DNA from: a virus
Direction: 5' to 3' (one strand)
IMG/VR virus record: IMGVR_UViG_3300032753_000102
Span: 1-34,717 of that record
Length of the DNA stretch: 34,717 nt
Shown here: one piece after another, positions 7,644 through 22,126 of the stretch
How the letters are laid out: every line of letters starts with the position of its first letter
Numbering within the stretch: the first letter of the stretch is position 1
Notes under the pieces: model-generated
Database searches by the model: none
What the model was told of the DNA's origin: nothing
The model's input: only the letters and a program-made list of their open reading frames with translations
Translations under genes and position numbers: made by a program

Positions 7644-7886
7644 TTGTATCAGATTAAACCTATTTTGTATCACATGGATTTAAAGCCCCAGACGCTAAGT
7701 GCTGAGACTTTTCAAAAGTTACAGCGTTTAATCAGACGGTGGCAGACGCACAATTGCATTCGAGCTTGGCATTGGTCAAGTCCTCCCGTTTATCGAGATG
7801 GGAAGTTACTTGGCTATCTAAGCTATAACGGCAAATTGTGGGATAAAAATGTTTTTAACGGACAGGGAGTGGAGATTACATTATAA
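7644..7886 (+). CDS. Hypothetical protein with TTG start
   Basis: 80 residues. The frame is open from 7545, but a strong AAAGGAGG site at 7631-7638 sits 5 nt before TTG 7644, so that start is preferred over GTG 7572. The upstream extension would add a hydrophobic stretch ending in LTRC, which is not a valid lipobox. The protein has a tryptophan-rich middle (RAWHWSSPPVYRDG) and beta-rich end. No family recognised. Confidence 0.5.
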   Translation: MYQIKPILYHMDLKPQTLSAETFQKLQRLIRRWQTHNCIRAWHWSSPPVYRDGKLLGYLSYNGKLWDKNVFNGQGVEITL

Positions 7887-9166: not shown

Positions 9167-9949
9167 CAATCCTAATAGACTCTGGGAGACGGACTTTGTT
9201 CCGTCTTTTTTTTCGGCATCATTAAAGTCAAATCCTCGTACATCAGAAACCCAGTACGGGAAGCCTATCTTCTTAGCCGTATTGATACCTACATCGTCAC
9301 AATCTGCTACTACAATGGCAGACGCAAAGTTCTTAGATATTTCAATCATGTTGGATGCGCTAAAACAAACGTGTATGACGGCATTTTGTTTAAGTTCTTT
9401 CATAGCTCTACGGACAGATAATCCCGTAGCCATACCCTCTACTAAGATATTAACGCCCTTATCACCCATCTTAAAAGACGCACCTTTAGTTATCTGACCA
9501 GTAAGGAACCTTTTGGAACCTTCTGGATCAATTAGCTGACACCCTACGATCTTATCGTTAATCCTCATGGGAATGACGAGTAGATTATTCCAAACTAAAC
9601 CCTTAGATTGAAAGCCTTTTTTATTGAGATATTTATGAGTTTGTAAGACGGCATTCTCTATGATGTAGTTAGCCCTATTCATAGCCTTAGACTGACGCTC
9701 TTCACGTTCTTTAATCTGCTTCTCTTTCTTGGCTTGTGCTAGTGGATCAGGACGGTACGGCTCCCGTGATCTCCATTGAATTGGTTTATCGTGGACAGCC
9801 CAGTTAATAATTGCGCCCGTCATGCCCTCACATATATAAGATCCGTTTTTTTTATTAGGTTTATCTTGAGTAGAAACACGCACCCAGCGATCCATCACCA
9901 GACTACCGATCATTAGCCCATGCATCTCAGCGAATTGATTAAAGTCCAT
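9146..9949 (-). CDS. Toprim-domain protein, primase-like
   Basis: 267 residues. The C-terminal Toprim domain is visible: the catalytic glutamate E171 in NILVEGMATG, and the DxD motif D216/D218 in VVADCDDVG, followed by the FDFND motif at 240-244. Toprim domains of this type are found in phage DnaG-like primases and plasmid primase-helicases. The N-terminal part (about 1-60) resembles a degenerate primase N-terminal module, but no zinc-binding Cys/His set is present, so its priming activity is uncertain. It pairs with the SF2 helicase upstream in the same operon. A terminator for the opposite strand is embedded in its 3' coding region. Confidence 0.8.
   Translation of the reverse strand: MDFNQFAEMHGLMIGSLVMDRWVRVSTQDKPNKKNGSYICEGMTGAIINWAVHDKPIQWRSREPYRPDPLAQAKKEKQIKEREERQSKAMNRANYIIENAVLQTHKYLNKKGFQSKGLVWNNLLVIPMRINDKIVGCQLIDPEGSKRFLTGQITKGASFKMGDKGVNILVEGMATGLSVRRAMKELKQNAVIHVCFSASNMIEISKNFASAIVVADCDDVGINTAKKIGFPYWVSDVRGFDFNDAEKKDGTKSVSQSLLGLLKTLQV
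9187..9213 (+). terminator. Intrinsic terminator of the rightward operon
   Basis: AGACGGA (9187-9193) and TCCGTCT (9200-9206) form a perfect 7-bp stem with a 6-nt loop, followed by seven further T residues. It lies inside the opposing toprim gene, where the A-run reads as Lys-Lys codons. Confidence 0.85.
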
Positions 9950-14933: not shown

Positions 14934-15139
14934 TTCTTTTGTGCCTTCCAAATAATTAACTGCCCAGTTTCGCCACGCTCAGTAATAAACTGAAGCAACG
15001 CCTCAATTTCAGCTTGTTGCTGGCGATTTTGTTCAATTAACCACCATATCGCTTCTGCTCCTAATTTTTGCTCATCATAACTAACTGGTTCGGTCTGTTG
15101 TAAATAGTCGGCAATTTCAAAACATTTATCTATATTCAT
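14930..15139 (-). CDS. QQQAEIEAL-family small protein
   Basis: 69 residues. An N-terminal helical part (CFEIADYLQQ, AEAIWWLIEQ) leads to NRQQQAEIEALLQF and the tail WKAQKK. Paralogous to genes at 10904, 11352, 15136 and 15696. ATGA overlaps on both sides. Confidence 0.65.
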   Translation of the reverse strand: MNIDKCFEIADYLQQTEPVSYDEQKLGAEAIWWLIEQNRQQQAEIEALLQFITERGETGQLIIWKAQKK

Positions 15140-17933: not shown

Positions 17934-17968
17934 CACCTATCCCTACTATGAGGAATAGGTGTTTTTTT
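17934..17968 (+). terminator. Intrinsic terminator on plus strand (no plus-strand gene upstream)
   Basis: CACCTAT (17934-17940) pairs with ATAGGTG (17955-17961), extended by CC/GG with a bulged A, followed by seven T residues (17962-17968). No plus-strand gene precedes it, so it may block antisense transcription into the leftward genes. On the minus strand it forms a hairpin in the HNH leader. Confidence 0.6.
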
Positions 17969-18070
17969 GCCTCGCTGAGTTCATTTGTTTACATATTGCT
18001 TCGATGTCTTTGTCGTGCCTAGGTCTGTCTTTATCACTCATCGGTCTATCCATACAGGACGGTTCTCCAT

Positions 18071-18175
18071 CTTATTCAAGCAATAACGAATAAGGGAAGG
18101 TGCTTCTCGCACATAATATCTTCTAGGGGTATTTACGGCCTTTACTGACGCAACACGATTGAGGTCAGGCTAGGC
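18071..18175. other. Stem-loops between HNH gene and the ncRNA
   Basis: CTTATTC (18071-18077) with GAATAAG (18088-18094); GTGC/GCAC (18100-18103, 18109-18112); and a two-step stem GCCT plus CTGAC (18138-18149) with GTCAG plus AGGC (18164-18175). No reading frame of note. These could be the 5' leader of the HNH gene, whose transcript would run leftward, or part of a larger RNA. Confidence 0.4.
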
Positions 18176-18185
18176 TGGAGAAACG

Positions 18186-18320
18186 AAAAAAGCCGATTAA
18201 ATCTGCTATTTCCGAGTTGGCGACCATTATGTAAGTATGCTTGGAACACTTACGTAATGTGAAATAACAGACCTAAACGGCCTTATCAAGCTAATTTACT
18301 CTCTGATCGCCAAACCAGCC
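18186..18320 (-). ncRNA. Compact structured RNA with promoter, two possible pseudoknots and terminator
   Basis: A minus-strand transcript of about 135 nt is predicted from near 18320 to the six-U run at 18191-18186. Its 3' half is one long stem: bases 18284-18261 pair with 18212-18189 over 24 positions with a single U-U mismatch and four G-U wobbles; those wobbles become C-A mismatches on the plus strand, so the RNA is minus-strand. The internal loop leads to a second stem (18258-18248 with 18236-18226, one mismatch). The 5' single-stranded UUGGCGAUC (18313-18305) is complementary over nine bases to GGUCGCCAA (18225-18217) in the internal loop, and GCUUG (18291-18287) to CAAGC in the hairpin loop (18243-18239). 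No protein is encoded. I recognise no RNA family; it may be a regulatory RNA, sponge or decoy. Confidence 0.72.
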
Positions 18321-18325
18321 CCTAC

Positions 18326-18353
18326 AGAATACCATAAATTGAATTTGTGTCAA
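18326..18353 (-). promoter_or_regulatory. Strong sigma70 promoter of the ncRNA
   Basis: Minus strand TTGACA (18353-18348), 16-bp spacer, TATTCT (18331-18326). Predicted start at 18319-18321. The same -10 hexamer occurs in the 19507-19535 promoter. The palindrome at 18366-18379 lies 12 bp upstream of the -35. Confidence 0.7.
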
Positions 18354-18365
18354 ATATATTTTTAC

Positions 18366-18379
18366 TGTAACAAGTTACA
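18366..18379. promoter_or_regulatory. Palindrome TGTAACAAGTTACA, possible operator (copy 2)
   Basis: Perfect copy located just upstream of the ncRNA promoter, a position suited to an activator, or to a repressor of a divergent promoter. No regulator is assigned. Confidence 0.55.
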
Positions 18380-19010
18380 CTTTAAAGTTATTGATAGCGG
18401 TACGATCCAATTTGCGATCTCGTACAGGCCCCTAGTGTGCGCCAATCCCTTTTCGCTACCAATACGACTGAAGACTGTTGCTAGGAGCTACCTAACTAGA
18501 CTCATCGGGATGAATAGTTGGAAATGGGTTGGAGCGCTCAACATTGCCCATCTTGCCTACACTACCTGACCGACTTTATATCCACAATCTTCATGCGTAT
18601 TAGGCTTGGGCTAACCAGCACACCATCCGGTGACTAGCTTATCTTAAGTTATGCCCCCAAGCAACATAACAGCATTTATGGTAACTCCAACTGGAACCAC
18701 CCATAAAAGCAGAACCAGAGGTTAGAAAGCCCCGCTATTTTGCACTTTACGTAGAGGTGTGCAGGGAAATCGGTTTTACTATAGCACATTTTAAAAGTAA
18801 GGCTACTGTTGTGTGTTTAAGAATCGTGTAGTAGTTAGACGTTTAAGGTCATCTCTTTCGAGCTTTGCTACCAATCCCCCAAGATTACAGCTTCCTTCCG
18901 CTTTAGCATACGGAAAATCTCCATATTTGGATCATCCCTCTTGGGTCTTATTTCCCCTAACAGTTGGGGTTGCTTACTATTTACCACAGCCTTGAGAAAA
19001 CTATAGCACA
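18380..19010. ncRNA. Candidate large structured RNA region
   Basis: About 630 bp with no convincing gene but many helices: GTACGA/TCGTAC (18400-18425); 10 bp pairing 18439-18449 with 18526-18537; AACTA plus TCAT with ATGA plus TAGTT (18494-18519); GCCCA and GCCTA (18546-18559) with TAGGC and TGGGC (18601-18611); GTTATG/CATAAC (18648-18670); TTTATGG/CCATAAA (18675-18707); TGCAC/GTGCA (18741-18762); CCCAAGA/TCTTGGG (18878-18945) enclosing TTCCG/CGGAA and TCCA/TGGA hairpins; CCCC/GGGG (18954-18969). The loop of the 18648-18670 hairpin also pairs with GCTTGGG at 18604-18610, a pseudoknot or switch. Wobbles in the 18675-18707 hairpin favour the minus strand. Size and complexity resemble giant ornate RNAs such as GOLLD or ROOL, but I cannot confirm homology. 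Confidence 0.4.
18778..19010. repeat. Direct repeat ACTATAGCACA (two copies)
   Basis: The 11-mer occurs at 18778-18788 and 19000-19010. On the minus strand it reads TGTGCTATAGT, an extended -10 (TG-n-TATAGT), so it could mark two minus-strand start sites or a duplicated element of the RNA. No good -35 is seen at either copy. Confidence 0.4.
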
Positions 19011-19015
19011 AAAGG

Positions 19016-19046
19016 GAACGTCCTAGTGGATTAGGCTAGGACGTTC
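19016..19046. other. 11-bp stem-loop after rusA
   Basis: GAACGTCCTAG (19016-19026) and CTAGGACGTTC (19036-19046) form a perfect stem with a 9-nt loop. On the minus strand, CCCTTTTG follows, so it may be a weak terminator for the RusA transcript, or the 5' cap hairpin of the structured RNA. Confidence 0.5.
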
Positions 19047-19121
19047 GGGGCGCACACGGAGGAGAGTGCTGGAGGATTTACAGAAATGAAGGATCTGTAC
19101 CTGTATTATTACACAGTATTG

Positions 19122-19466
19122 TTATTTTGCATATTCTGTGATAGTTACCTCACACCCACCGCCTTTGATCTTTTCTCCACGTTCGATAGTCATTTTCCAC
19201 ACTTGTTGGTCATTGTCATAAAGATATCCCTGCAAAGAATCAAGGCAGCATTTTCCTATGTTATCCACATCGAGCAGTCTTTTATCACGTGGGAAAAGGA
19301 TAATTGATACTTCTACTCGCTTATCCCCAAAGCTCTTTAGCCCTTGACAGGCTTGAGCTACAGCAGATTTGAATGCCATGCCACGTTTTGATATGTATCG
19401 TCTATGACCACTTGACAAATAATAATTATTTACGCTACATGGGTATGGAAGTTGAAGAGTTATCAT
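19122..19466 (-). CDS. rusA: RusA family Holliday-junction resolvase
   Basis: 114 residues from ATG 19466 (MITLQLPYPCSVNNYY); an in-frame upstream start is possible but lacks a ribosome-binding site. The catalytic core is DVDNIGKCCLDSLQG with D66, D68 and K72, and the third acid D86 in LYDNDQQVW, matching D70, D72, K76 and D91 of E. coli RusA. It resolves recombination and replication intermediates, fitting the ERF and RecB-like genes nearby. The gene runs against those genes from the shared intergenic region and has its own TTGTACTC-N8-TCATGTGT element. Confidence 0.88.
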   Translation of the reverse strand: MITLQLPYPCSVNNYYLSSGHRRYISKRGMAFKSAVAQACQGLKSFGDKRVEVSIILFPRDKRLLDVDNIGKCCLDSLQGYLYDNDQQVWKMTIERGEKIKGGGCEVTITEYAK

Positions 19467-19478
19467 AATTTTCTTTAC

Positions 19479-19502
19479 ACACATGAATTGATATGAGTAC
19501 AA
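19479..19502 (-). promoter_or_regulatory. Bipartite motif TTGTACTC-N8-TCATGTGT (copy 2)
   Basis: Same 8-mers and gap as 17425-17448, 12 bp upstream of the RusA ATG. Minus strand. Close to the plus-strand TTGACA of the opposing promoter, so the two promoters may be coregulated. Confidence 0.5.
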
Positions 19503-19743: not shown

Positions 19744-19895
19744 ATCAGGATGTATTCAACCCTATGCAAAATGAAATATTACGTGCTGTATTCCGCTCTA
19801 TGGATAAAGAACTTGGGATTCGTCCTTTAACTGAAGAGCAGCTCAAAGAATTTAACTTAAAGTTAGATGAGGAAAATCATGCGCCTGACCAATAA
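19740..19895 (+). CDS. Small hypothetical protein
   Basis: 51 residues (MNQDVFNPMQNEILRAVFRS...), with a charged helix and acidic end (LTEEQLKEFNLKLDEEN). ATGA overlap with the previous gene; it overlaps the RecB-like gene by 17 bp. Confidence 0.6.
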   Translation: MNQDVFNPMQNEILRAVFRSMDKELGIRPLTEEQLKEFNLKLDEENHAPDQ

Positions 19896-20754
19896 GTACC
19901 ACCTACCTCAGACAATCGTTAACGTATTGGAAAGACCGAACTATACAAAGGGTAAAGCTCACCTTTCAGTAACGGAGTTATTGCAGCCTCCCCAGTTAGT
20001 TCAGTTACGTAAGAAGTATTGGGATGATTTAGAAGAGGATGTATCTGATAAGGTATGGGCTATCTTTGGTACTGCTATTCACTCAATCTTAGAGCAAGGC
20101 AAAGATGAGAACCATATCATCGAGCAACGCCTACACGAGACTTTAGAGGGGTGGAATATCTCAGGAGCTATTGACCTTCAACGTGTTGATAAAGATGGCG
20201 TGGTGGTATCTGATTACAAGACTACAGGTGCTTGGGCAGTAATGAATGAGAAGATTGACTGGGAACAACAGTTAAACATCTATGCTTGGCTAGTAGAAAG
20301 AGTAAAGAAGATCCCCGTTAAGAAGATAGAGATCGTAGCCATCATTCGAGATTGGAGCCGTAGAGATGCACAGAATAAAGAAGGATATCCTGAAGCCCCG
20401 ATTAAAGTCATTGATATTAATTTGTGGCCTTATGAAGTCCGTGAAGATTTCATCAGATCCCGTATCGGCTTACATTCCAATGCTAATTTGGCATCAGAAA
20501 TTGGGGAAGATTATGCTCCATGTACGCCAGCGGAGTGTTGGGAGAAGCCCACTTCTTTTGCAATTAAAAAGACTGGGAATAAAAGAGCTACCAATGTATG
20601 TCTCACTATCGAAGATGCAGAAGCAAAAAAAGCAGAGCTTGGGAAAGGGTATGAGATTGAAGTACGTCCGGGAGAAAGGACGAGATGTAATGAGTTTTGT
20701 CAGGTAAGAGATGTATGTAAGCAGTTTCAAGATTATTTAAAGGAGGAAGTATGA
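19879..20754 (+). CDS. RecB/Cas4-like PD-(D/E)XK exonuclease with cysteine cluster
   Basis: 291 residues from ATG 19879 (MRLTNKYHLPQ), preferred over ATG 19867 because GAGGA is well spaced. Nuclease motifs: H68 (GTAIH), D99 (GAIDL), D112 and K114 (SDYKTT), and the QxxxY motif Q131-Y135 (QLNIY). Cysteines C215, C220 and the C-terminal set C270, C274 and C280 (RCNEFC...VC) may bind an iron-sulfur cluster as in AddB or Cas4. It degrades or resects DNA ends, generating substrate for the ERF annealase encoded downstream. ATGA overlap with the following membrane-protein gene. Confidence 0.85.
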   Translation: MRLTNKYHLPQTIVNVLERPNYTKGKAHLSVTELLQPPQLVQLRKKYWDDLEEDVSDKVWAIFGTAIHSILEQGKDENHIIEQRLHETLEGWNISGAIDLQRVDKDGVVVSDYKTTGAWAVMNEKIDWEQQLNIYAWLVERVKKIPVKKIEIVAIIRDWSRRDAQNKEGYPEAPIKVIDINLWPYEVREDFIRSRIGLHSNANLASEIGEDYAPCTPAECWEKPTSFAIKKTGNKRATNVCLTIEDAEAKKAELGKGYEIEVRPGERTRCNEFCQVRDVCKQFQDYLKEEV

Positions 20755-21939: not shown

Positions 21940-22126
21940 CACTGGTAAGGTAAAGATTGGATGCTATTACGAACGTCCACGTTACGTTGAGCATGATAGA
22001 GATATGTTGATGTTGCAGTTATGCTTAATCGGGGATGCTCGTAAAGCTAGGATTCAATACTGGATTAATGTATCCTACTTGACCGCAGTAGCATTTATCT
22101 TTTTAGTCATGATTTTTAAGAGGTGA
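21923..22126 (+). CDS. Small membrane-anchored protein
   Basis: 67 residues with a soluble N-terminus (MVIPYDTGKVKIGCYYERPR) and one C-terminal hydrophobic segment (LTAVAFIFLVMIFKR), making a tail-anchored protein. The stop overlaps the DUF3310 region. Confidence 0.55.
   Translation: MVIPYDTGKVKIGCYYERPRYVEHDRDMLMLQLCLIGDARKARIQYWINVSYLTAVAFIFLVMIFKR

Follow-up and report, generated by a model that had tools for sequence, protein, structure and literature searches.

A covarying, tightly folded small RNA gene neighboring the recombination genes of phages

The window analyzed here, meaning the whole stretch of DNA, is a 34.7 kb contig deposited as an IMG/VR virus record, whose genes include a terminase, a primase, a helicase, a ParB-like gene, an Erf-like gene, and an exonuclease gene. 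Approximately 1.2 kb without a credible gene separates a RusA-like Holliday junction resolvase gene (19122-19502, minus strand) from the next gene to the left, and the minus strand of this gap holds RNA1, a structured small RNA of ~135 nt (18186-18323; supported by its fold and by covariance model matches). A PD-(D/E)XK exonuclease gene (19867-20754, plus strand; PHROG 2139 and PF12705) served as a synteny marker. Among 69 loci with at least 2 kb of sequence upstream of the phage exonuclease gene, 44 contain RNA1, always divergent from that gene and at a median distance of 1,090 bp upstream (range 0.6-2.6 kb). The most regular same-strand upstream neighbor of RNA1 is resolvase-like, being of the RusA type (family F3) in 12 of 25 loci and RuvC-like in 10, with both names assigned by reading the sequences. 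The window conforms to this arrangement, as its RNA1 is divergent from the exonuclease gene and near the RusA-like gene, with the genes in the expected order. Two tRNA genes are located closely upstream of RNA1 in L184 (2115-2282) and L187 (3891-4058).

The first-pass annotation had described a self-contained gene here, with a minus-strand TTGACA-N16-TATTCT promoter and a stem ending in six U residues. Both elements are present. The sigma-70-like promoter (18326-18353, minus strand) has the two hexamers at a spacing of 16 and an extended -10 (TGG), that is, a TG before the -10 hexamer; promoter-like scores of at least 10/12 occurred in 56% of 78 upstream regions from the window and its relatives vs 3.9% of shuffles. 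The 5' hairpin H1 (18303-18318; stem CUGGU/AUCAG), predicted by RNAalifold on alignment A3 and supported by compensatory pairs, is followed by a rod (18189-18284), composed of P1 (5' strand ~18284-18261, 3' strand ~18212-18189) and P2 (~18259-18246 with 18238-18225). The rod passes directly into UUUUUU (18191-18186), read as the U-run of an intrinsic terminator. U-runs are weak in some other members (e.g., UCUUUUG in L142 and CCUUUUC in L077). The minimum free energy of 18186-18320 on this strand was -45.2 kcal/mol, compared with -27.5 +/- 3.3 for shuffled sequences (z = -5.4; none of 200 shuffles as good), and the stretch had the lowest z-score among 120-nt windows of the contig (60-nt steps, both strands). 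Other folded windows, some of them within genes, had z-scores of about -4.5 to -5 (21961-22080 and 9481-9600, plus strand; 14941-15060, minus strand; 7741-7860, plus strand). As the site falls within a replication/recombination module, between divergent operons, the helices could in principle arise merely from a DNA element, for example a hairpin-bearing replication origin. This is very unlikely, given that G-U pairs are tolerated on the modeled strand, the plus strand of 18186-18320 folds at -27.1 only, and the promoter and U-run bracket the fold exactly.

Relatives of RNA1 were sought from starting loci supplied by two IMG/VR protein scans with the RusA-like and exonuclease proteins. RNA1 was detected in several of these loci by blastn and nhmmer, and a DNA pattern brought more. 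Covariance model R1, built from six sequences with the window among its seed, matched the window with 124.9 bits (18185-18324), and searches with it uncovered a second subfamily with little sequence similarity. A pattern for this second subfamily matched 51 IMG/VR stretches, with an identical fold in the distinct ones examined. Model R2, constructed from the second subfamily with the window excluded, recovered the RNA1 of the window (36.2 bits, E = 8.7e-6) and also revealed a third group, in which the apical stem is short. Taken together, the covariance model and pattern searches located relatives in dozens of IMG/VR contigs. R2 additionally matched two GenBank phage genomes, both from Manatee Spring (MW202426.1 and MW202545.1), which came to light by covariance model only, among fetched helicase relatives. 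The architecture common to the groups comprises a sigma-70-like promoter, H1, a short linker, a rod of ~20 pairs, and a basal U-run. In all groups, the window's included, an unpaired stretch of 6-8 nt, found on the 3' side of the rod only, is complementary to the H1 loop. A sequence-free descriptor (U-run, rod, and a bulge able to pair with an upstream stretch) recovered the place of RNA1 in most loci, and its off-site matches were scattered single ones only.

Further searches set limits on this distribution. Against 50,697 phage records, blastn with the window region and with three RNA1 sequences returned no named relative. No prophage carrier was identified among 84,980 bacterial and archaeal genomes scanned with the subfamily 2 pattern, which does not cover the window's subfamily; the three matches obtained lacked the rod and were judged to be due to chance. 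Among the candidates from a first subfamily 1 pattern scan of IMG/VR, six were dropped because the fold was missing (L127, L131, L132, L134, L135, and L141), and a second gave zero matches. The initial suggestion that the layout belongs to no known phage RNA family is upheld as far as Rfam is concerned: Rfam 15 at gathering thresholds gave no matches on the window's RNA1, or in eight relative loci, and a relaxed search of 17940-18420 also produced no match on RNA1. Relaxed scans yielded only sub-threshold overlaps of miRNA models with RNA1, which were unconvincing. The threshold for Betaproteobacteria-1 (RF02932; at least 49.4 bits) was not met on RNA1 either, and the 87-96-bit matches to this family fall just downstream. 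A literature search of partial coverage recovered no description of the RNA1 layout, and nothing useful on EGFOA, Betaproteobacteria-1, or phage RNAs with an RNA1-like layout, although an existing description elsewhere cannot be excluded.

Evidence that the fold is maintained comes from compensatory changes. Across 24 aligned subfamily 2 sequences, 94.4% of cells pair and 23 pairs show double changes, with a covariation of 0.368 compared with 0.189 in shuffles. On four of five measures, no shuffle out of 500 came up to the real alignment, while the fifth, the number of further pair types, did not discriminate (354/500 shuffles). Pairing fell to 32%-46% when the partner was shifted by 1-3 columns. 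An absence of covarying homologs, or relatives that break both long-range complementarities, would have refuted the original proposal; we observed the opposite, with homologs showing compensation in the stem and in the pairing of the loop with the internal loop, as well as, for members of the window's subfamily, in the pairing of the apical loop. We conclude that 18186-18320, read on the minus strand, is a genuine gene encoding a noncoding, tightly folded small RNA, the transcript of which has not been shown.

A feature of the whole family is a pairing, K1, between the H1 loop (UUGGCG(A), 18307-18313) and the 3'-side internal loop of the rod ((U)CGCCAA, 18217-18223; both minus strand). A 9-base match between the 5' end and the internal loop had been claimed, and it exists (UUGGCGAUC:GGUCGCCAA; eight Watson-Crick pairs and one U.G, as read from the sequence) and covaries. 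However, since three of its bases double as part of the H1 stem, the form seen in relatives is better described as a loop/bulge kissing interaction of 6-7 bp (7 bp in the window, P = 0.002). In the 24 subfamily 2 sequences, all 168 of 168 K1 cells are paired, with double changes in five of seven pairs and no one-sided changes. Over all groups, 28 H1-loop sequences were collected, nearly all with a full-length partner of 6-8 nt in the bulge; the L130/L142 type is a weak case (~4 bp, including one G.U). It is possible that the loop of one RNA1 molecule binds the bulge of another, forming dimers or rings comparable to the phi29 packaging RNA, ROOL, or GOLLD. The K1 match in subfamily 2, which is perfect, wobble-free, and fast-changing, is what a recognition code would show, and in OLE, ROOL, and GOLLD, covariation lends support to conserved contacts between molecules (PMC12286853). 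Nonetheless, an intramolecular fold seems sterically easy given the linkers, neutral compensation explains the covariation equally well, and the analogy with packaging derives from general knowledge, while the window phage has an ordinary terminase. We consider this intermolecular form quite unlikely.

A second long-range pairing, PK2, joins the linker (GCUUG, 18287-18291) to the apical loop (CAAGC, 18239-18243; both minus strand). This 5-bp pairing, also part of the original proposal, exists, but is not significant in the window alone (P about 0.11). Its support derives from relatives, in which compensated versions extend to 7-9 bp (9 bp in L049, 7 in L012, 8 in L007, and 9 in L130 and L142; P = 0.004 to <0.0002), whereas linkers and apical loops combined from different members pair over only 2-6 bp. 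PK2 thus covaries, but is confined to the window's subfamily.

RNA1 does not stand alone, but is one member of a cluster of noncoding RNAs. Immediately following the RusA-like gene is RNA0, a short RNA-like element (19010-19099, minus strand) with a hairpin, CCUCC motifs, and a terminator (GAACGUCCUAG...CUAGGACGUUCCCUUUU); the region 18961-19080 folds with a z-score of -6.4, and the layout is repeated in L012, L007, L035, and L049. The CCUCC motifs are anti-Shine-Dalgarno-like, and the element has a promoter-like sequence and a strong terminator. A sub-threshold match to RF02278 (Betaproteobacteria toxic small RNA) occurs in the equivalent gap of L007 and L077, with a resemblance also in L173. 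Downstream of RNA1, a second structured RNA, RNA2 (18003-18132, minus strand), resembles the Rfam family EGFOA (RF02955), below threshold (17.9 bits, E = 0.64; gathering score 37.7), and the RNA2 of L012 shows a similar partial match, also below threshold. In four phage types, RNA2 is instead Betaproteobacteria-1 (RF02932), matched at 87-96 bits and 7-15 nt after RNA1 (L035 7879-8001, plus strand; L110 6535-6654, L130 2479-2604, and L142 3306-3431, minus strand). In many other loci it is an unnamed RNA of several hundred nucleotides. Such a long structured RNA, 100-500 nt downstream of RNA1, was seen in L077, L084, L053, L098, and others, with conserved blocks CUCGGUGUGACCCGCACCUC and, in several, GGGAGGGUCAACGGGUAAGAGG; it had no above-threshold Rfam match in the loci scanned.

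The proximity of RNA2 bears on whether RNA1 is self-contained. While the promoter, fold, and U-run suggest that it is, RNA2 starts shortly past the U-run in the loci inspected, including the four phage types with RF02932, and lacks a recognizable separate promoter, which leaves open that a single longer transcript has RNA1 as its leader. RNA1 might then act in cis as a gate, in which K1 sets the strength of the rod-terminator, read-through makes RNA2, and the H1 loop may alternate between two partners, the RNA1 bulge and a matching site in RNA2. One RNA2 type has, just ahead of its G(C/U)AGCCG, 7 nt that either duplicate the RNA1 bulge or pair with the H1 loop (such RNA2s were noted in L075, L082, L100, L115, L145, L147, and L184). 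Runs of at least six pairs between the H1 loop and this site occurred in 7 of 21 distinct combinations, compared with 2.5 expected (P about 0.001, permutation). A purely structural K1 would leave unexplained that, in about a third of the combinations tested, RNA2 carries a partner for the H1 loop. Nevertheless, the RNA2 site is suggestive only, as the permutation ignores relatedness, the script misread two of the 21 loops (L066 and L083), and the site was picked out prior to being tested; in the window itself, RNA2 lacks a further copy of the K1 site. Moreover, RNA2 types and downstream genes change freely across loci while RNA1 stays, such that the conserved downstream gene expected of a riboswitch or attenuator leader is lacking, and genes after RNA2 often have their own promoter-like sequence (read by eye). 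We regard the cis-acting gate as possible, but hold it only tentatively.

A broader conjecture is that a recognition code links three sites, namely the RNA1 bulge, the RNA2 site, and the H1 loop as its reading head, with codes particular to each phage type allowing RNA1 and RNA2, or several RNA1 molecules, to recognize their own kind in a phage-specific switch or assembly. We offer this as speculation and think it doubtful. Extra nearby copies of the H1-loop complement, as targets in trans, showed no general enrichment, with the RNA2 site as the exception.

On balance, and without great confidence, we favor a phage noncoding RNA gene whose product acts in trans through its shape, a function that is inferred only. 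The letters of nearly every helix vary while the shape is kept, which is most readily explained by such action; the few invariant unpaired bases make a fixed antisense target unlikely, and the lack of a conserved downstream gene argues for a free-standing RNA. As a putative sequence of events, host RNA polymerase would start at the consensus promoter, the promoter-like sequence being observed and transcription inferred, and produce an RNA of ~135 nt. Folding may begin with H1, followed by P2, after which the 3'-side bulge of the rod would capture the H1 loop as K1; covariation supports the helices, whereas the order is presumed. The rod would then zip into the terminator, with release predicted at the U-run, and in the window's subfamily the second pairing would tie the linker to the apical loop. 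The resulting RNA would be a compact rod, folded back on itself, that buries the 5' region and carries a U-tail; it could bind a phage or host protein or ribonucleoprotein early in infection, rather than one fixed antisense target. A chaperone that recognizes 3' ends, of the ProQ/FinO family or Hfq, is a first candidate partner, purely by inference and without binding data. RNA1 is thus probably an early, shape-acting RNA and less likely a terminator gate for a downstream RNA, although neither can be decided without RNA ends.

RNA1 is a regular companion of phage recombination genes, in carriers that are nearly all uncultured and many of which come from freshwater-type metagenomes. Its kissing pair, with 28 versions in one architecture, constitutes a natural set of orthogonal RNA contacts and a target for structural work. 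Among known systems, the packaging RNA (pRNA) of phi29 also comes from a phage, is comparable in size, and has complementary loops that vary in concert from phage to phage. RNA1 differs in that it has no Rfam match, its loop pairs with the bulge of a terminator rod, and an intramolecular form suffices; the window phage carries a Terminase_6C-type terminase. Kissing loops also hold together ROOL, GOLLD, and OLE, structured phage or bacterial RNAs whose function is unknown (PMC12286853), but these are several hundred nucleotides long and gave no match to RNA1. A terminator stem with a 3' tail is the usual ligand of ProQ/FinO proteins (PMC9977716), and small RNAs bound by these proteins or by Hfq share with RNA1 the terminator stem and 3' U tail, a likeness of sequence only; unlike them, RNA1 has no evident conserved unpaired seed. 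Betaproteobacteria-1 and EGFOA are, like RNA1, structured small RNAs, and they belong to its noncoding cluster, where they follow it immediately downstream in the same orientation, but they correspond to RNA2, and RNA1 matches neither model. For Betaproteobacteria-1, the RNA1 cluster supplies a phage setting.
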